Below are positions 12,684-21,287 of a stretch of DNA of 64,000 bases, piece after piece. The notes beneath the pieces were generated by a model, which was not told where the DNA came from, ran no database searches, and saw nothing but the letters and a program-made list of their open reading frames with translations. How positions within the stretch are numbered: position 1 is the stretch's first letter; every line of letters starts with the position of its first letter. The stretch spans positions 3,162,001-3,226,000 of the forward strand of contig NZ_JACHCG010000001.1 in the NCBI RefSeq assembly GCF_014200595.1. The letters are read 5' to 3'. The DNA comes from Pedobacter cryoconitis. GTDB taxonomy: Bacteria > Bacteroidota > Bacteroidia > Sphingobacteriales > Sphingobacteriaceae. The position numbers and the translations under genes were made by a program.

Positions 12684-12720
12684 ATAAATACAGCCATTAA
12701 GAAATAATGGCTGTATTTAT
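12684..12720 (-). terminator. Hairpin terminator after the cyanophycinase gene
   Basis: Positions 12684-12699 pair with 12705-12720 in a perfect 16-bp stem with a 5-nt loop. It begins 5 nt beyond the cyanophycinase stop on the minus strand and ends before the GNAT gene. The A/T-rich base of the stem supplies part of the U-tract. It marks the likely 3' end of the sigma/FecR/SusCD/peptidase unit. Confidence 0.65.
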
Positions 12721-12725
12721 ATAAC

Positions 12726-13613
12726 TTACTTCAGTTTAAACTGATCTCCGGCTCCGTAAACACTAAATCGCAGATTTTCAAAAGTAATCAGATGATTTTC
12801 CCGGATCTTTACCTTTTCAGGATCAGCTACGCAGATTACCTGGCTCACCCCGGCTACAGTAATCTTTTTACCTTGCACAATGATGGCTGTTCCTTCGTCA
12901 ATTCCAATACAATCATAGCCCGGATAAGCCGTTAATGCAGATAAAAGACGGTTATAGCGGCTGCGTTTTATAAAATGCTGATCTATAATAACAGAGTCCA
13001 GTAACCCCATTCCACTTTCAAACTCAATGTTATCAGCTCTGAGTTTATTAAAAGTTTCCCTGTAATTGGTATCCAGTAACTGGTTTCCGGTAATCATATG
13101 TTTACTCATTACCGCAGCCCCGGCACTTGTGCCGGCAATAGTCGCCCCGTTTTGATAAGCTTTATGAATCGCGCCATATACCGGAGTATTTAAAACCACT
13201 TTCATGAAGCGGCTTTGATCCCCTCCTGTGATAAAAACAAGTCTTGCTCCTGCCAGAGAATCAAGCCATGACTGATCACGTACTTTCTCTCCGGCAAAGT
13301 TGAAACTGTAAATATTGTTTTTAGCTGCTGCTGACAACTGGTTTTTAATCGCTTCAAATGAAGCTTCCGGCTCAGCTGTAGCCATAGGTAAAACTACGAT
13401 ATAATCGTTAGGTCTGAGATTAGCGGTTTTAATCAGTGTATTGATCAGCTCAGGAGAACGATCACCACCACCGATAATAAACAGACTTCCTTTGGATAGA
13501 ACCGGAATTGCTGGCTTAGTTTTATACTGCGCAAATGATGAATTTACTACAAATAATAAAAACAGAAAAGTTAATGCCTGAATGCGCAGCTGAATTTTAG
13601 AAGTCATCATCAC
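12726..13613 (-). CDS. cphB: Secreted cyanophycinase (peptidase family S51)
   Basis: Cyanophycinase is a serine exopeptidase that cuts cyanophycin to beta-Asp-Arg dipeptides. The catalytic nucleophile motif GTSAGA is present (S163), along with ITGGDQ (129-133), DQHFIKRSRYNRLL (211-224) and GIDEGTA, all diagnostic of cyanophycinase rather than aspartyl dipeptidase PepE. A signal peptide is clear (hydrophobic core ALTFLFLLFVV, then SSFAQ), so the enzyme should act outside the cytoplasm, like the extracellular CphE type. There is 1 nt between its start and the upstream isoaspartyl-peptidase stop, so the two are probably co-translated. The upstream SusCD genes suggest uptake of the released peptides. 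The exact substrate is inference. Confidence 0.9.
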   Translation of the reverse strand: MMMTSKIQLRIQALTFLFLLFVVNSSFAQYKTKPAIPVLSKGSLFIIGGGDRSPELINTLIKTANLRPNDYIVVLPMATAEPEASFEAIKNQLSAAAKNNIYSFNFAGEKVRDQSWLDSLAGARLVFITGGDQSRFMKVVLNTPVYGAIHKAYQNGATIAGTSAGAAVMSKHMITGNQLLDTNYRETFNKLRADNIEFESGMGLLDSVIIDQHFIKRSRYNRLLSALTAYPGYDCIGIDEGTAIIVQGKKITVAGVSQVICVADPEKVKIRENHLITFENLRFSVYGAGDQFKLK

Positions 13614-13614
13614 G

Positions 13615-14643
13615 TTATTTATAAATTAATACCTCAATCTTACCATTTTCAGTAACTGTTCCTCTGTACATCCCTTCAGTATTGAAAGGCATGCTTACAT
13701 TACCTTTTGCATCCAGGGCAATCAGGCCACCATCACCTCCCATTTTACCTACTTTATCCAATGCCGCACGGGAAGCATCAGCTACAGACATATTTTTATA
13801 TTCCATCATGGCCGAAATATCATGAGCAACTACGTTACGGATATAAAATTCGCCCCATCCGGTACATGAAATACCAGCAGTCGCATTATTTGCATAAGTT
13901 CCTGCGCCAATGATCGGAGAATCACCTATGCGGCCATATCTTTTATTAGTCATTCCGCCTGTGGAAGTACCCGCTGCCAGATTTCCATTCTTATCTAAAG
14001 CAACTGCGCCTACAGTACCAAATTTATAATCATGGTTAATGGTTCCTAATTTCATTGATTTTTTATTACCATGGTCTAAAACAGACTTGGTAGAATCTTC
14101 TTTTATCGCTTGTTGTAAGCCATCCCAACGCTCTTTAGTATAAAAATACTTAGGATCGACGATTTCAATTCCAGCTTGTTTAGCAAATAATTCTGCACCG
14201 TGGCCTACCATCATCACATGCTCAGATTTTTCCATTACTGCCCTGGCTGCTGATATAGGGTTTTTAATTGTAGTTACTCCTGCTACCGCTCCTGCCATCA
14301 TCGTTTTTCCATCCATAATTGCAGCATCCATTTCATTTTTACCGTCATGGGTAAATACAGCACCTTTTCCTGCGTTAAATAATGGAGAATCTTCCATGAT
14401 ATGAATGGTCGCTTCTACTGCATCTAAACTGGTCTTTCCTGATTTCAAAACGTCATACCCGGTCTGTAAAGCTTTTGTCAATGCTGCAACGTAAGCCGCT
14501 TCCTTTTCAGGGCTCATATTTTTCCTGGTAATTGTTCCCGCTCCTCCATGGATAACCATTACATATTTTTCTTGTCCGTAAGCCAGGTTAGCTACCAAAC
14601 AGCATAACAGGACAGCTATTATTTTTAAGTTCTTATTCATCAT
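13615..14643 (-). CDS. iaaA: Secreted isoaspartyl peptidase / plant-type L-asparaginase (Ntn hydrolase)
   Basis: The precursor is 342 aa with a signal peptide (IIAVLLCCLVANLAYG). It has HGGAGT near residue 32 and the autocleavage/catalytic Thr at T210 in HDYKFGTVGAVALD. The substrate-binding run GTSTGGMTNKRYGRIGDSP and the GTYA segment follow. These are hallmarks of type III asparaginases that hydrolyse beta-aspartyl dipeptides and L-Asn. A periplasmic location fits the signal. Next to cyanophycinase it would complete cyanophycin breakdown by splitting beta-Asp-Arg to Asp and Arg. It follows SusD by 90 nt with a hairpin between. It could instead repair or scavenge isoaspartyl peptides from protein ageing. 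Confidence 0.9.
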   Translation of the reverse strand: MMNKNLKIIAVLLCCLVANLAYGQEKYVMVIHGGAGTITRKNMSPEKEAAYVAALTKALQTGYDVLKSGKTSLDAVEATIHIMEDSPLFNAGKGAVFTHDGKNEMDAAIMDGKTMMAGAVAGVTTIKNPISAARAVMEKSEHVMMVGHGAELFAKQAGIEIVDPKYFYTKERWDGLQQAIKEDSTKSVLDHGNKKSMKLGTINHDYKFGTVGAVALDKNGNLAAGTSTGGMTNKRYGRIGDSPIIGAGTYANNATAGISCTGWGEFYIRNVVAHDISAMMEYKNMSVADASRAALDKVGKMGGDGGLIALDAKGNVSMPFNTEGMYRGTVTENGKIEVLIYK

Positions 14644-14692
14644 TTTGGTTCTTTTATTTTGGTTGAAGGTGATTTGAAATATAATAACAATT

Positions 14693-14727
14693 TTTGAGTG
14701 GAGAGAATTTACAAGTCTCCACTCAAA
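14693..14727. other. Intra-operon hairpin between SusD and isoaspartyl peptidase genes
   Basis: Positions 14693-14704 pair with 14716-14727 in a perfect 12-bp stem with an 11-nt loop, just after the SusD stop on the minus strand. No T-run follows in that direction, so I read it as an attenuating or mRNA-stabilising hairpin rather than a full terminator. Confidence 0.5.
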
Positions 14728-14733
14728 CGCGTA

Positions 14734-16107
14734 TTAATAGTTGGGATTTTGAACAGTGTTTTTATTAACAGAGATTTCCAATGCAGGCAATGGAAGCGAA
14801 TATTGTGCTTTTGAAGGCAGCAATTTAACAGCTCCAGAGGTATTTATGGCATCTTCTGGTAATCTTTCTACAGGCAAATTTCTGCGTTTCAAGTCAAAAA
14901 ACCGATGACCTTCAAAAGCTAATTCTTTAAAGCGTTCAGTATAAATTGCGAGGATCAGCTCATCTTTACCAGCAAAATTTACTGCGGTGTAGTCTTTTAT
15001 TCTGGCAGCACGCAAAGTATTCAGATCTCCGGTTGCATTACCTGTACTCTCTGCTTCGGCTTCTGCCCTGATTAAATACATTTCGCCTGTGCGGAACATT
15101 TTCAAATCTGCCAGCCCCGGTGAAAGTGCCGTACCCGCATATTTGTTAACCAGGTATTGGGATTTCTTAGCTCCCCTGGTATTATCAAATTTGATATAGG
15201 CCTGATAACGTATATCATTTTCCTGATCAAAAGAATTGATCAATTTAAAAGAAGGTGCATATAAAACTATATTTCCTGTTTGACGATAAAACAGGTCACC
15301 TGTCCTGGTTTCATCAGGCATCCTTTTAAGCTTCCAGATCACCTCGTTGTCGGCAGCATCAGTCCATATGCCAGGAAATTGCTCTGCTGTCGCCAGCGGC
15401 ATTAAATTGATAGCTTCAGTGGAGTAGGCTATTGCTTCTGCCCAGTTTTTCTCATACAATGCCAATCTTGCCTGTATTGCGGAAACACCTATTTTAGTTA
15501 CCCTTGTTTTATCATCAAAAGATAAAGGGATTAATGATTTGGCAGTTACAAGGTCAGCCTTAGCGGCAGCAACCACCACTTCAAAAGGATCTCTTGCGGG
15601 GTAACTGATCACTGAGGTTTTCATATAAGGAACTCCAAGCGCACCATTTTGGTAAGCCGAACCATACATTCTGAGTAATTCGAAATGACAAAATGCTCTT
15701 AAGGCCAGCAATTCTCCACGGTAACGGTCTGCGGTTACTTTATCAGTAATCGTGAGCTTGTCCAGCCCTGCCAATACTCTGTTTATCCTGTCTATAGCTA
15801 CATAATAGTCGTTATAAGAACTAGTAACAGATCCATTATCAGCAGTATAAAGCCATCTGTGGGCATCTGTATTACTTACTGTATTTTCTGCAGGCAGCAT
15901 TACTTCGTCAGAGATAATAGCATTTACGCCTATCAAAGTATAATTCAGCTGTCCATAAACTCCGATCAGCCCTAAATCGACATCATTCAGGTTTCGGTAA
16001 GCTTTCTCTGCATCTATAGTATCTGTAGGTTTTAAATCCAGTTTGGTACAGGAAGAAAAGGCCATAAACAGAGCAAGTATCAAAGTATATTTTAGAGGAT
16101 TAATCAT
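14734..16107 (-). CDS. SusD/RagB family outer-membrane nutrient-binding lipoprotein
   Basis: SusD-type lipoproteins form the lid of SusC transporters and bind the substrate. The start at 16107 gives a short signal peptide ending in a lipobox at FSSC (C20), followed by TKLDLKPTD, as in RagB/SusD. SusD-like helical repeats follow, with ELLRMYG, the TYTERFKELAFEGHRFFDLKR region and a C-terminal NPNY. It starts 10 nt after the SusC stop. The frame extends upstream to 16185, but that part overlaps SusC and gives no signal peptide. Ligand preference is unknown; the two peptidase genes downstream suggest peptides or cyanophycin fragments rather than glycan. Confidence 0.92.
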   Translation of the reverse strand: MINPLKYTLILALFMAFSSCTKLDLKPTDTIDAEKAYRNLNDVDLGLIGVYGQLNYTLIGVNAIISDEVMLPAENTVSNTDAHRWLYTADNGSVTSSYNDYYVAIDRINRVLAGLDKLTITDKVTADRYRGELLALRAFCHFELLRMYGSAYQNGALGVPYMKTSVISYPARDPFEVVVAAAKADLVTAKSLIPLSFDDKTRVTKIGVSAIQARLALYEKNWAEAIAYSTEAINLMPLATAEQFPGIWTDAADNEVIWKLKRMPDETRTGDLFYRQTGNIVLYAPSFKLINSFDQENDIRYQAYIKFDNTRGAKKSQYLVNKYAGTALSPGLADLKMFRTGEMYLIRAEAEAESTGNATGDLNTLRAARIKDYTAVNFAGKDELILAIYTERFKELAFEGHRFFDLKRRNLPVERLPEDAINTSGAVKLLPSKAQYSLPLPALEISVNKNTVQNPNY

Positions 16108-16117
16108 GGCTGTAATT

Positions 16118-19100
16118 TTAGAAGTTAACACTAATTCCTGCGGTATATGTTCTGGCATTCGGATATTGGAAAAGCCCCGAAACACCGTTATTTTCAGGAT
16201 CCAATCCTCTCCATTTAGTCCAGGTGACCAGATTCTGCCCTTGTATAAAAACCTTTAAGTTGCTGAATACCTTTGTTTTTTCCAGCAGCGCTTTAGGCAA
16301 AGTATAACTGATATTTACGTTTCTTAACCTCAAAAATGAAGCATCCTGAATGTCTTTTGAAGTAAAATTTCTAGGGATATCAAAACGCTGTAAGGCTTTC
16401 ACATCACCAGGTTTCATCCAGCGGTCGTCCAGCATCCTGATCGATTGGTTACTGGTTGCATAACGTTGATTTTCATTATAAAAATCTTCATTGTTCCAGC
16501 GGGAAACACCCGATACAAAAGAGAACAGTGCACTTGCAGTAATCCCTTTCCAGCTTAAACTGGTATTAAACCCACCTGTGAATGAAGGATATAAACTCCC
16601 TGATTTCGCTACGCTCTGCGTATTGGAATTATAAGTGGTGGTAATGCTTCCATCCAGGTTATAGTATTGTGCTTCACCAGTCTGTGGATTCACACCTGCC
16701 CATTGCGGCGCATAATAAGATCCATAAGGCAACCCAACTTGTAAGATCCTTGTATCTCCATCAGGGTAAGAATCTGCAACATCAGTTACATGAAGCACCA
16801 CGTTTTTATTGTAACCAGCATTCACCCCAACGGTCCAGGTGAAATCCCTGGTTTTTATAATATCCCCACTCAAATCAAACTCTACCCCTCTGTTTCTCAT
16901 CTTTCCGGTACTCAAACTCAACAGCGGAAAACCAGCGGTTGCTGATGGCGGCTGATCGATGAACATATTATTGGTGATCTTATTATAGTAATCTGCTGAC
17001 AGGCGTAATCTGTGACTTTTGAATAAAGCAAGCTCAAAACCTGTATTGAATTCGTTCACATATTCCCAGTCAAAATTGGGGTTACCGGCAGAAACCGGGC
17101 TGACTCCCGGCTTACCTCCATAAGTTACATTTGCGCCATAAGTTGGCAGGTATAAGAAATCTCCGGCTCCAAAAGGACTTGCTGAGGTACCGTAACTGAC
17201 CCTGAAGCTCAACTCTGAAATGAGTGTACTATTTTTCAGGAAATCTTCATTTTTAGCATTCCAGTTTGCGCCCACCGAGTAAAAGCCATGCCATTTATTT
17301 TGAGGGGCAACTTTCGTAGATCCATCATAACGGTAACTTCCGGTCAGGGTGTACTTACTATCATAGGTATATCTGGCCACACTCATGAAAGAGGCTAATG
17401 CGCTGCTGGTTTTTGAACCACCTACATTAGGCAGATAATCAACACTGTTTGTAATTCCAGCTGGCGTTTCTGGTAAACGGCCGTCTAATCCAAAGCCAGT
17501 GAAGCCAAAAGAGTTATAATTATTATAAACATATTCGTAAAAAGCAGAGGCTTCAAAGTCATGTTTTTCATTGAACGTTTTAGCGTAAGTCAAACCGGTA
17601 GTCGAAATAATATTGAAATTTCTTCTCGTTCCTTCATCAAAACGGCCCTTTCCACCCAGCGTATTGGTATTATTGGTAGATCCATAATACGAATCCGGAT
17701 TGATATAAGCCTGGTCAGTTGAATTTCTATAATCTATACCAGCCCTGGTTGTAATTTTTAGTTCTGGCAGAATTTGATAAGCTAAAGCCACACCAATGAT
17801 AGATTTTAACTGGTCAGTTTTGCTGGACGAGTTAAATAAACGTTCTAATGCCTGGCTCCCTTCCCGCTGATCCGCAATAAAATATTGATCCTGGTTACCC
17901 GGATGAATCAGGGTACCATCAGGTGCATAAGGATTTTCATAAGGAAGTGCATAATAAACGGCAGACATGGCTGTTCCACCTCTGCTACTTCCCTCTCCTT
18001 CGGTAAAACTCTGATTAGAATAACCAATATTCAGGTTCACATTTCCCGAAAACTTGTCCGATTTAAAATCAAGATTACTTTTCAGCGCATATCTTTCCAA
18101 CCCTGTACGTTTAGCAACCCCATCCTGTTTGTAATAATTCAACGAGTTATAAAAACGTACATTCTCATTACCGCCACTCACGCTAACTTGTTGTTCCTGG
18201 AATTTGCTTTGCTGATAGAATTCATCTCTCCAGTCAATATTGATTTTTCTGATACTATCTAAAATATGGTCTGCACTTTGTCTGAAAGCCTGCGTTCCGG
18301 AGATATAGTCAGGGTTTTTAGGAGAGTAAGTCCACCCTGGGCCAAGATCTCTTCCGAAATCAAGTCCTACACCTTCTTCAAATGACAAGCGCTGCGCAGT
18401 ATTCATCATGGTAAATTTAGGATCAGTCAATTTAGAAAAACCGTATTGAGAGGTATACTGTACCTGTATTTTACCTGCTTTTCCTTTTTTAGTTGTAATC
18501 ACAATAACCCCATTAGATCCTCTTGATCCATAGAGTGCTTTGGCGGAGGCATCTTTTAATACAGTTACATTCTCAATATCGGCCGAATTGATAGTTTGAA
18601 AGAAACTGGCTTCAATCGGTGTTCCATCCATAATATATAATGGTGCAGAAGATCCGTTCACACTACCGACTCCGCGGATCACCACCGCAGCACTTTGCCC
18701 TGGTTGTCCTGAGCTGGAAATAACGCTCATTCCTGCTACCCTGCCCTGTAAAATCTGGTCAAAGGTCAGTCCTGCCACATCGTTAATTTTCTCCGCGGTG
18801 ACCAGAGTTGCCGCACTCGCTGATTGTGTACGTTTGTAGTTTGTATAACCTGTAACTACTACTTCCTGTAAGTTCCGGTTATCGCTTTTTAAGATTACAT
18901 TGATAGTATTTCCACTGGCCGAAAGCGTTTGTTTGATATAACCTACATATGAAAATTCAAGAGTTGCAGTTGCATCAGGCACACGGATTGCATAATTCCC
19001 CTTGGCATCTGTTGTTGTCGCTACTGTAGACCCGGTCAATTTAACCGATACGCCAGGTAGTGGTAACCCCGCTTCATCTGCTACACGACCAGAAATCAGC

Positions 19101-19483
19101 AAATCGTTTTGTGTTTTCACCGCCGGATAAATAACGACAAGATTGTTTTCTTTGAGTACGTAGGTGAGCCTGGTTTCCTTTAAAATAGATTTCATCGCTT
19201 CATCAAGTGAGACCATATGAAGGTTTAATGAAGCCTTTTCTTCTTTTGATAAAGTTTGATCGCTATATACGAACCGGTAGTCTGTTTGCTGCTCGATAGC
19301 TTTCAATAGATTTCTAATACTGATATGATCAGCACTAATGGTTATTTTCTGCTGTGCAAAACTTGTGGCCGAAACCTGCATGCACATCAGCAGTAAAATG
19401 AAGCCCGTAAGTTTTGTAAGCAGCAACATCCTGCTGCTGGTCAAAGACTTACCAGCTCTTTCTAAGAGTAAGGTTTTTCTCAT
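16118..19483 (-). CDS. SusC/RagA family TonB-linked outer-membrane transporter with STN domain
   Basis: The protein has a signal segment (residues about 21-44), an STN domain (46-118, ADHISIRNLLKAIEQQTDYRF) and a carboxypeptidase-like beta-sandwich (about 128-200). A SusC signature, NLQEVVVTGY, precedes the plug (about 205-330) and a large beta-barrel ends in VNF. The STN domain indicates signalling to the FecR-type anti-sigma factor encoded just upstream, so the transporter likely reports its own substrate to the sigma factor. It starts 66 nt after the FecR stop. It is the import partner of the SusD and peptidase genes downstream. Confidence 0.94.
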   Translation of the reverse strand: MRKTLLLERAGKSLTSSRMLLLTKLTGFILLLMCMQVSATSFAQQKITISADHISIRNLLKAIEQQTDYRFVYSDQTLSKEEKASLNLHMVSLDEAMKSILKETRLTYVLKENNLVVIYPAVKTQNDLLISGRVADEAGLPLPGVSVKLTGSTVATTTDAKGNYAIRVPDATATLEFSYVGYIKQTLSASGNTINVILKSDNRNLQEVVVTGYTNYKRTQSASAATLVTAEKINDVAGLTFDQILQGRVAGMSVISSSGQPGQSAAVVIRGVGSVNGSSAPLYIMDGTPIEASFFQTINSADIENVTVLKDASAKALYGSRGSNGVIVITTKKGKAGKIQVQYTSQYGFSKLTDPKFTMMNTAQRLSFEEGVGLDFGRDLGPGWTYSPKNPDYISGTQAFRQSADHILDSIRKINIDWRDEFYQQSKFQEQQVSVSGGNENVRFYNSLNYYKQDGVAKRTGLERYALKSNLDFKSDKFSGNVNLNIGYSNQSFTEGEGSSRGGTAMSAVYYALPYENPYAPDGTLIHPGNQDQYFIADQREGSQALERLFNSSSKTDQLKSIIGVALAYQILPELKITTRAGIDYRNSTDQAYINPDSYYGSTNNTNTLGGKGRFDEGTRRNFNIISTTGLTYAKTFNEKHDFEASAFYEYVYNNYNSFGFTGFGLDGRLPETPAGITNSVDYLPNVGGSKTSSALASFMSVARYTYDSKYTLTGSYRYDGSTKVAPQNKWHGFYSVGANWNAKNEDFLKNSTLISELSFRVSYGTSASPFGAGDFLYLPTYGANVTYGGKPGVSPVSAGNPNFDWEYVNEFNTGFELALFKSHRLRLSADYYNKITNNMFIDQPPSATAGFPLLSLSTGKMRNRGVEFDLSGDIIKTRDFTWTVGVNAGYNKNVVLHVTDVADSYPDGDTRILQVGLPYGSYYAPQWAGVNPQTGEAQYYNLDGSITTTYNSNTQSVAKSGSLYPSFTGGFNTSLSWKGITASALFSFVSGVSRWNNEDFYNENQRYATSNQSIRMLDDRWMKPGDVKALQRFDIPRNFTSKDIQDASFLRLRNVNISYTLPKALLEKTKVFSNLKVFIQGQNLVTWTKWRGLDPENNGVSGLFQYPNARTYTAGISVNF

Positions 19484-19549
19484 ATTGGTTAGTTTAAGGT
19501 GTTTGATATAATTGTATAGGTGGTCAGGCTTTTGTTGGTGGTTCTGGTT

Positions 19550-20650
19550 CTATTTACTCAGGACAATCCTGTTTTGTTCCGCTTTAAATTCAAATGGATA
19601 AGCAGTTTGCAATGCTTCAAGAGTTTTTATAATACTCTCATTTTCAAACGTTCCGGAGTAACGGTAAGTTTTAACTTCCGGATCAGCGATATAAATTTCG
19701 ATGCCATACCAGCTTTGTAATTTTTCTGCAATTACAGTGAGTGGTTCGTTTTCGATCAGCATCGGGTGATGAATCCATTGGGTTTCTTCAGATTTATTGG
19801 TCTGCGCATTACGGTTAAGAGCAGAAATCCTGAATATATTTTTAAGGCTTTCATCTTTACCGGCAGGTGCACTATGAAATGATAGTTTTTCATCAGGCTT
19901 CAGCAAGACCCGGTATCCAGGATATTTTTTTGATTCTACTTGTACACTGCCATGAATCAAAGAGGTTTCGATCAAACCTGAATGTGGATAGGCTTTGACA
20001 TTAAAACTCGTTCCCAATACTTTGATGTCATTAAAGGGAGTGTGTACAACAAAGGGATGTTTTGCATCATGTTTGACTTCAAAAAAGGCTTCTCCTGTAA
20101 GCCAAAGTTCCCGACTGGCTGGATTAAAGTTTTTAGCCAGTTTGATTTCACTGTTTTGATGAAGCGTAATTACCGTTCCATCAGGCAGGATTACCGTTTT
20201 TCTGGGGATTTGACCGGAAGAAAAAACAGATGCAGCTAATGGGTGTTCAACCTGAATATTTTTTGAAGATGAATAGTTTTGCTGAATAAAATAAAGAGAA
20301 ACGAGGATGATGACAGCGGCGGCGGCAAAGCTGATGTATTTATAAAAACCATGAGGTGTTATTGAAATCGACTTTTCATCCGGGACAGTGCTCAATAATT
20401 GCGCTAATGTTTCCTGCTGTTTGAATCCACTTTTCAATGCTTTGACTTGTTCCAGCCTGCTGCCTTGCTTAATCGTCAGAATATTAACCAGTTTTTTCGC
20501 CTGTTCTACATCGAATGCTCTTTCCGGTATACTATTTATCCATTCTTCCCATAAAACATGATTTTCCAGACTTATCCCAAGACAATAATGCTGAAAAGAT
20601 TCATTACAAACCAATTCTTCTACTAAAAAGTCATTATCTGGAAGCTTCAT
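19550..20650 (-). CDS. FecR family anti-sigma factor
   Basis: The N-terminal cytoplasmic region (about 1-100) would bind the ECF sigma factor. A single transmembrane helix follows at about 105-123 (YISFAAAAVIILVSLYFI), then a periplasmic FecR domain (about 135-250) and a C-terminal DUF4974 domain (about 295-366) that would dock the STN domain of SusC. The layout is typical of Bacteroidota sigma/anti-sigma loci. The gene lies between the sigma factor and SusC in one orientation. It conveys substrate occupancy of SusC across the periplasm to the sigma factor. Confidence 0.92.
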   Translation of the reverse strand: MKLPDNDFLVEELVCNESFQHYCLGISLENHVLWEEWINSIPERAFDVEQAKKLVNILTIKQGSRLEQVKALKSGFKQQETLAQLLSTVPDEKSISITPHGFYKYISFAAAAVIILVSLYFIQQNYSSSKNIQVEHPLAASVFSSGQIPRKTVILPDGTVITLHQNSEIKLAKNFNPASRELWLTGEAFFEVKHDAKHPFVVHTPFNDIKVLGTSFNVKAYPHSGLIETSLIHGSVQVESKKYPGYRVLLKPDEKLSFHSAPAGKDESLKNIFRISALNRNAQTNKSEETQWIHHPMLIENEPLTVIAEKLQSWYGIEIYIADPEVKTYRYSGTFENESIIKTLEALQTAYPFEFKAEQNRIVLSK

Positions 20651-20735
20651 ATGTCCGTTTTATCTTATAGACGGAGAAATGACCTGGTTTTCCTAAGAGA
20701 AATACATATTTATTTTCAAAAAGACTCAGCTATAT

Positions 20736-21287
20736 TTATTTAAGGATCTTCCTCAGTATTTTTATCGCATCGTAAACAGTATTGTAAGCAGTTTTTATGG
20801 TTTGAGAAGTCCGCTCTGCAATTTGTTCATAGCTTAATCCTTCGAAAAATTTAAGCTGGATTAACTCTGATTGTCTGGGTGTAAGTTGTGAAATGGCAAC
20901 TCTTAATTTATTTTTGAGTTCTTCATCCTGTTGTACGCCAATCATAATCTCTTCGTAGGATAATTCGTTCATGGCTTCCCCTTTTCCCATTTTATTAACC
21001 GCGATATTTGTACGGTCAATATAAGCCAGCTGATCCAGCATACATCTCCTGAGAGAAGTCATTAGATAAGATTTAACGTTTTCAACCGGATTAAGCCGGG
21101 TTCTTTTATCCCATAGATTTAAAAATACCTGATTAACGCAATCTTTGACTAACTCATCATCAGGATTAATCTTTAAGCCAAAGCGGATGAGATGGAAATA
21201 TAAATTATTATATAGCCCAAACAATGCGTTCTTGTCGCCAAGCAGCATCTGTTCCCAATAATTCTTATCCTCTTCTGTGGGTAGCAT
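20736..21287 (-). CDS. ECF RNA polymerase sigma factor (sigma-70 family)
   Basis: This 183-residue ECF sigma factor has region 2 with DCVNQVFLNLWDKR and region 4 with LTPRQSELIQLKFFEGLSYEQIAERTSQTIKTAYN, a helix-turn-helix for the -35 element. I chose the Met at 21287 (MLPTEEDKNYWE); the frame extends to 21347 with a poor N-terminus. It is followed by FecR, SusC, SusD and two peptidase genes in the same direction, so it probably controls that unit. Its promoter consensus cannot be read from a single locus. Confidence 0.92.
   Translation of the reverse strand: MLPTEEDKNYWEQMLLGDKNALFGLYNNLYFHLIRFGLKINPDDELVKDCVNQVFLNLWDKRTRLNPVENVKSYLMTSLRRCMLDQLAYIDRTNIAVNKMGKGEAMNELSYEEIMIGVQQDEELKNKLRVAISQLTPRQSELIQLKFFEGLSYEQIAERTSQTIKTAYNTVYDAIKILRKILK

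Follow-up and report, generated by a model that had tools for sequence, protein, structure and literature searches.

A putative self-sensing SusCD operon for the uptake and degradation of cyanophycin in Pedobacter cryoconitis

Gene content of the operon

Cyanophycin is a polymer built of aspartate and arginine that serves to store nitrogen. Here we describe a six-gene unit at positions 12686-21287, minus strand, of a 64,000-nucleotide stretch of the Pedobacter cryoconitis genome (assembly GCF_014200595.1, contig NZ_JACHCG010000001.1, positions 3,162,001 to 3,226,000; this whole stretch is called the window below). With good confidence, based on sequence comparison, we read the unit as a probable dedicated, self-sensing operon for the uptake and degradation of cyanophycin or its oligomers. 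Gene calls and profile searches give the order ECF sigma factor, FecR, SusC with an STN domain, SusD, an Asparaginase_2 enzyme (window IaaA) and an S51 peptidase (S51a), followed by a hairpin (Table 1). The Plug domain was also above its curated cut-off in the profile search of the operon. A preliminary description of the window had listed these six genes in one direction at 12726-21287, and the gene calls and domain scores confirm it. The same description had called the transport unit "fused" to the hydrolases, which has to be corrected, as the six genes are an operon and not a fusion. The SusD ATG is located 10 bases past the SusC stop, and the S51a and IaaA genes abut; S51a, of up to 295 aa, has ATG codons at 13610 and 13607. 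Co-transcription of the six genes and their termination as one unit are presumed.

Table 1. Features of the six-gene unit in the window
Feature	Position	Strand	Evidence
ECF (FecI-type) sigma factor, 183 aa	20736..21287	-	Pfam Sigma70_r2, r4_2; NCBIfam sigma70-ECF 74.5 bits, cut-off 42.9
FecR-type anti-sigma factor, 366 aa	19550..20650	-	Pfam FecR and FecR_C above cut-off
SusC/RagA TonB-dependent transporter, N-terminal STN, 1121 aa	16118..19483	-	TIGR04056 728 bits, cut-off 368; STN 33.9 bits, cut-off 28.4
SusD/RagB-type lipoprotein, 457 aa	14734..16107	-	SusD_RagB 78 bits, cut-off 23; SusD-like_3 above cut-off; lipobox-like FSSC (read by eye)
Hairpin, 12-bp, in the susD/isoaspartyl peptidase gap	14693..14727	-	z = -4.3 vs 200 shuffles
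Predicted exported IaaA-type isoaspartyl peptidase, 342 aa, nucleophile Thr210	13615..14643	-	Asparaginase_2 405 bits
Predicted exported S51 cyanophycinase (S51a), <=295 aa, nucleophile Ser163	12726..13613	-	TIGR02069 153.2 bits, cut-off 126.6; Peptidase_S51 79.8 bits
Hairpin 3' of last gene, 14-bp stem, likely terminator	12686..12718	not assigned	z = -6.2 vs 200 shuffles

S51a carries the residues of a cyanophycinase

S51a passes the curated equivalog cut-off of TIGR02069, and its Ser163, in the GTSAGA motif that the preliminary description had pointed out, aligns with Ser132 of Synechocystis CphB (3EN0). The cyanophycin pocket of CphB is given as Gln101, Asp172, Gln173, Arg178, Arg180 and Arg183 in the relevant passage of PMC3235067. 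In the alignment to 3EN0 the catalytic serine and all six pocket residues are kept in S51a, whose GGDQ, GTSAG and DQHFxxRxRxxR motifs match the catalytic and pocket positions of CphB. These pocket motifs are missing from 6NQC and 7C9B, two S51 structures that are more distant. An AlphaFold2 model of S51a has a mean predicted local distance difference test (pLDDT) score of 88, and a fold search with it ranks CphB structures first (E 1e-22 to 1e-20); 6NQC comes next (E 4e-16), with dipeptidase E structures third (E 1e-12 to 1e-8). Ahead of the domain is a 40-aa extension with a hydrophobic stretch and, as read by eye, no lipobox. By its family and residues, S51a would free beta-Asp-Arg from cyanophycin. 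Among named organisms, the closest match to the S51a protein is one of Pedobacter cryoconitis, at 89%.

Two other identities were considered for S51a and set aside. PepE, the alpha-aspartyl dipeptidase, is rejected, as S51a scores 41 bits where the cut-off is 156, and the motif is absent in dipeptidase 7C9B. An S51 immunity protein of the microcin-C type, as described in part of PMC9239234, was considered, MccG itself not having been compared; S51a has the cyanophycinase motif.

Conservation was followed in a sample of 399 genomes of Sphingobacteriaceae, referred to as the family. At E 0.001 the S51a query matched in 253 of these genomes; 89 have a protein with at least 38% identity to S51a of the window and are counted as S51a genomes, and the weaker matches stand at about 29-37% in the part listed. 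Two genomes with fragments only (G148, G367) are excluded from the 89, and two with split or broken genes (G398, G190) are included. For 80 of the 88 S51a genomes other than that of the window, the locus was retrieved over at most 20 kb, leaving out G143, G041, G251, G058, G046, G398, G040 and G190. In these family orthologues GGDQ is present in 79/80, GTSAG in 80/80 and DQH[F/Y]xxRxRxxR in 80/80. A further 40 phylum loci are the best-scoring ones outside the family and not a random draw; of their 40 S51a-like proteins, 38 have GGDQ and all have the arginine motif.

The Asparaginase_2 enzyme is of the IaaA type

In alignments with solved relatives, their beta chains start at Thr210 of window IaaA, the threonine to which the preliminary description had already drawn attention. 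The enzyme scores 330 bits to 2ZAK, which we take to be the E. coli enzyme, vs at most 125 bits to glycosylasparaginases, and identity as a glycosylasparaginase is rejected on these scores. The TSTGG motif is found in all 70 IaaA orthologues. Since window IaaA stays below the cut-off of the beta-aspartyl-peptidase equivalog NF007589 (364 bits against 567), it is classed by sequence as a PF01112 member of the IaaA type outside the strict equivalog. A hydrophobic extension of 26 aa precedes its domain, again with no lipobox seen by eye.

A SusC subfamily tied to the exported cyanophycinase

A SusC search at E 1e-250, in which only the best first-look candidates were scored per genome, matched in 74 of the 399 genomes. 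SusC proteins of at least 1231 bits are present in 69 genomes, and the next best score is 871 bits. In 69/69 of these genomes S51a is located within 4.65 kb of this SusC, and among the 310 family genomes without S51a none has a SusC of at least 1231 bits. These data define the SusC as a dedicated subfamily tied, by gene linkage, to the predicted exported cyanophycinase. In the 80 family loci, SusC and SusD are both at the site in 65, on the same strand in 64 of them, with S51a inverted in L074. The best solved relative of window SusC is RagA (377 bits).

The preliminary description had taken conservation of the peptidases without SusCD in most relatives as grounds for refutation; this is not the case in the family, where 69 of the 89 S51a genomes have this SusC. 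The linkage is weaker beyond the family. SusC and SusD are both present in 12 of the 40 phylum loci, two of which have the subfamily of the window. A further set of named loci, the best 80 of 557 confirmed, several of them on short contigs and some of them sharing contigs with the other locus sets, contains 28 with orthologous SusCD, 20 with other SusCD within 10.5 kb and 32 with neither, thus SusCD in 48/80. The orthologous pairs occur in Pedobacter, Sphingobacterium, Hymenobacter, Flavisolibacter, Chitinophagaceae metagenome-assembled genomes (MAGs) and others.

When 15 of the 20 S51a genomes lacking this SusC were searched singly, again with only the best first-look candidates scored, the 851-bit type was the sole SusC in one, and the other 14 gave none at E 1e-200. 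Ten loci were read gene by gene, and those without SusCD place the hydrolases among apparent housekeeping genes. In L073, L079, L087 and others, exported IaaA plus S51a, or S51a alone, stands without SusCD near a DctA-like symporter. A second architecture of the exported cyanophycinase locus is seen in L143, L156 and similar phylum loci: some 10 kb separate an exported S51 from an S51 protein of 680 aa, the interval holds a TonB-receptor-like gene of a different type (tested in L143), and an RpiR-like regulator was read by eye.

STN and FecR/ECF occur together

STN, FecR and ECF sigma domains were all found in the window operon by domain search. Among the 65 family loci with SusC, 49 have both the STN domain and FecR/ECF genes upstream, 14 have neither and none is mixed; two are cut by the end of the contig or locus, so that all 63 decidable loci are concordant. 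A six-frame recheck (tblastn) detected STN in both positive controls and in 0/15 STN-less loci, all of which are from one genus. Such concordance is what a working relay of the FecI/FecR type predicts, and the joint presence and absence favours the earlier suggestion that substrate may be sensed through SusC. The STN-less loci show that the transport and enzyme part persists without the sensor.

An inner cyanophycin set in the same genome

As the preliminary description had stated, no cyanophycin synthetase is encoded in the window. The search of the genome for cphA that it had proposed found one on contig C5 (1250 bits, cut-off 850), adjoining genes for a second cyanophycinase (214 bits) and a short IaaA-like protein. 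In this cluster, at L011:7401-12262, the cphB is divergent from cphA and cytosolic, and the IaaA-like gene encodes 280 aa. The inner cyanophycinase reads DTHF where the exported S51a reads DQHF. With the cphA-cphB-IaaA set inside and the exported set with its importer, the pathway is therefore present twice in the genome. A third Asparaginase_2 gene of the genome (C1:2277510-2278349, L015; 244 bits) is apart from both cyanophycin sets.

Across the family, 55 genomes have both cphA and S51a, 34 have S51a only, 147 have cphA only and 163 have neither (Fisher p 0.02; the genomes are related, and no inference is drawn from this value). Twenty cphA clusters were drawn from the 55 genomes with both. 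None of the 20 has a SusC or SusD match in the 20 kb covered, and 19 have the short IaaA-like gene beside cphB. The isoaspartyl dipeptidase of cphA-bearing Bacteroidota is named as a gap, and called undiscovered, in a passage of PMC10206079. From its sequence, the short IaaA-like gene of the cphA trio is a candidate for this missing enzyme.

The inner proteins also served to calibrate the assignment of export. A hydrophobic stretch ahead of the domain was found in 73/73 S51a and 56/56 IaaA among those placed by the pattern, which left 7 S51a and 14 IaaA unplaced, and by the same measure in 0/21 inner cyanophycinases and 0/20 inner IaaA-like proteins. A laxer measure (79/80 S51a, 70/70 IaaA) was dropped, as some inner cyanophycinases pass it as well.

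A second S51 enzyme and other neighbouring genes

A second S51 gene is present in 38 of the 80 family loci, sited between susD and iaaA or S51a (for example L053:7373-8443). A lipobox-like motif, by a loose pattern, is found in 36/38 of its products, and the catalytic and pocket motifs in 38/38. All 38 of these loci have SusCD, and none of the 15 SusCD-less loci carries the second gene. The single protein tested is under the TIGR02069 cut-off, at 69 bits. In the window the gap between susD and iaaA is 90 bases and holds the hairpin only, with no second S51 gene, and a TIGR02069 search of the genome gave two matches, neither of the second-S51 type. By analogy, the second S51 may be a surface enzyme comparable to SusG that was lost in this lineage.

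Genes that could handle the products vary among the loci. A DctA/GltP-like symporter is found in 19/80 family loci (one of them a fragment), and the single protein tested has its best score as DctA. YfcC-like transporters occur in 17/40 phylum loci, the two tested being under the YfcC cut-off, and an arginine-deiminase-like gene paired with CtlX is in 2/40. Ornithine aminotransferase (rocD) is encoded near the exported S51 in 5/40 phylum and 21/80 named loci, nearly all of Flavobacterium.

Hairpins at the operon

The preliminary description had placed a terminator after the last gene. The hairpin there is strong by its z value (Table 1); it has no T tract and is missing from the list of a consensus terminator scan, for which reasons we call it only a likely terminator. 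It should be mentioned that the scan returned 6 terminator-like sites against a chance expectation of 8.6. The hairpin between susD and iaaA likewise has no T tract and is absent from that list. It is kept in the 3 nearest of 5 aligned relatives and missing in the other 2, on which basis it was rejected as a conserved element. Possibly it is an attenuator or RNA-stability element, and it may tune expression of the enzymes vs the transporter.

Proposed mechanism and alternative explanations

In the mechanism proposed here, SusD as a surface lipoprotein and SusC as a TonB-dependent pore would capture either polymer or soluble chains, passing them to the periplasm. There, exported S51a would act by exo-cleavage, trimming off beta-Asp-Arg, which exported IaaA would split into aspartate and arginine for passage across the inner membrane via general amino-acid carriers. 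Loaded SusC would signal through STN to FecR, and the ECF sigma factor thus released would raise expression of the operon. The enzymatic steps are predicted from family and residues, sensing from domain co-occurrence and transport from gene linkage; substrate, direction of transport, periplasmic cleavage and induction are to be taken in this predictive sense. The earlier reading of a scavenging locus for cyanophycin or beta-aspartyl peptides is supported by the SusC linkage in 69/69 genomes, by the pocket residues of S51a and by the concordance of STN with FecR/ECF. The further claim, that the polymer comes "from other bacteria", could not be upheld: the source cannot be told, and the same genome encodes a cyanophycin synthetase.

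Several observations weigh against the proposed function. The S51 structure nearest to S51a by both sequence and fold is 7UQV, titled pseudo-CphB, which bears the same motifs, and because of this the motifs of S51a may not prove cleavage of cyanophycin. Cyanophycin of full length probably could not pass a SusCD pore, being too large or insoluble, and the window locus is without the second S51 that could cut the polymer at the surface. Of the S51b-like proteins found in phylum loci, only 9/18 carry the complete arginine motif. The hydrolases apparently also work without SusCD, because 20/89 S51a family genomes are without this SusC and 28/40 phylum loci are without a SusC-SusD pair near S51a. 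No carrier or rocD gene is found beside the window operon, and such neighbours elsewhere may reflect descent and not function. Lastly, the IaaA and IadA enzymes of cyanophycin clusters are described as promiscuous in part of PMC10206079.

The best-surviving alternative leaves the mechanism as it is and changes the source: the operon would mainly recapture the polymer of lysed siblings, and not that of cyanobacteria or prey. It agrees with the cphA, cytosolic cphB and IaaA-like genes of this genome and with the presence of cphA in 43 of the 69 genomes bearing the SusC. However, cphA was not detected in the other 26/69, and this SusC is lacking in 159/202 cphA-bearing genomes, so that cphA and SusC travel separately. 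We regard recovery from kin as the principal role to be doubtful, though worth keeping in view.

Scavenging of a broader range of peptides is less probable still, and we consider it unlikely. SusCD would here act like RagAB, taking mixed oligopeptides or the isoaspartyl peptides of damaged protein, with the hydrolases as part of a general diet. The position of RagA as the best solved SusC relative fits this, as does the presence of exported S51a, mostly with IaaA, without SusCD in the 20 genomes mentioned above; IaaA enzymes, moreover, accept many beta-aspartyl dipeptides according to a passage of PMC10206079. Against it, SusC was not found apart from the cyanophycinase (69/69), all 80 S51a and all 38 second S51 sequences keep the arginine motif, and domain search found no general peptidase family among the six operon genes. 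That the locus serves glycans or glycopeptides, with the Asparaginase_2 enzyme acting as a glycosylasparaginase and SusCD importing N-glycopeptides, is highly improbable: SusCD units under ECF/FecR control for the most part serve glycans, and Asparaginase_2 includes glycosylasparaginases, but the 2ZAK and glycosylasparaginase scores and the invariant TSTGG given above point the other way, and the domain search found no glycosidase among the six genes.

Taking the operon as a cyanophycin uptake and degradation system, we incline slightly toward a wider proposal, in which some Bacteroidota run two cyanophycin economies: an inner one for storage (cphA, cphB, iaaA) and an outer one, equipped with the SusC subfamily, which would detect, import and digest environmental cyanophycin. 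The ancestral outer set would have included a surface lipoprotein cyanophycinase resembling SusG, later lost here, and cyanophycin would be a shared nitrogen currency of soil and not only a cyanobacterial store. The data suggest that common soil and freshwater Bacteroidota eat cyanophycin, and with the operon one can test whether a SusCD importer with a built-in sensor takes a branched non-ribosomal poly-amino acid, not a glycan.

Comparison with known systems

A locus for cyanophycin utilization that includes a transporter was already reported in 2017. In Salinivirga cyanobacteriivorans strain L21-Spi-D4 (Ben Hania et al. 2017, doi 10.1111/1462-2920.13639, as cited in a passage of PMC10206079), genes for cyanophycinases and for an isoaspartyl dipeptidase stand together with a scavenging transporter. 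As far as that passage goes, it shares cyanophycinase, isoaspartyl dipeptidase and transporter with the window operon, and the dipeptidase is IadA there and IaaA here. The original abstract on that strain is said to describe a transport complex with homology to polysaccharide utilization loci. The STN/FecR/ECF control and the cphA in the same genome are counted as differences from the Salinivirga locus. In a locus of a Salinivirgaceae MAG (L261), S51a stands next to a SusCD, the SusC of which reaches 336 bits vs at least 1231 in the window subfamily.

Passages of PMC10206079 define a cyanophycin utilization locus as a cluster of cyanophycinase, isoaspartyl dipeptidase and transporter, under which the window operon falls by its genes alone, and in 2023 they called clusters of cyanophycinase and isoaspartyl dipeptidase probable scavenging clusters. 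A Pedobacter mendelii protein is among the dipeptidase queries of that paper, in the part concerned, and the genus was therefore already known to carry such a gene. Among the titles and abstracts listed in searches of open-licence papers, none concerned a SusCD-cyanophycinase operon in Sphingobacteriaceae.

The exported S51 cyanophycinase CphE of Pseudomonas has the pocket residues of S51a except for a threonine at the position of Gln173; the CphE passage of PMC3235067 does not mention SusCD. In Citromicrobium sp. JLT1363, a TonB receptor gene is near a cyanophycinase gene and cyanophycin was proposed as the substrate (PMC3400609). A TonB-dependent transporter near a cyanophycinase is thus common to Citromicrobium and the window; SusD, an isoaspartyl peptidase and a sigma/anti-sigma pair go unmentioned in the relevant passages. 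RagAB of Porphyromonas gingivalis is a peptide importer of the SusC/SusD type (PMC9723704, in part). It shares this type with the window SusCD, and the RagA match is distant, 377 bits over 1121 aa. We know of no cyanophycinase linked to RagAB. As far as our searches show, what the window operon and its relatives add to the literature is a dedicated subfamily of SusC with STN/FecR/ECF control, a second S51 enzyme in relatives and the coexistence with a separate inner cphA set.

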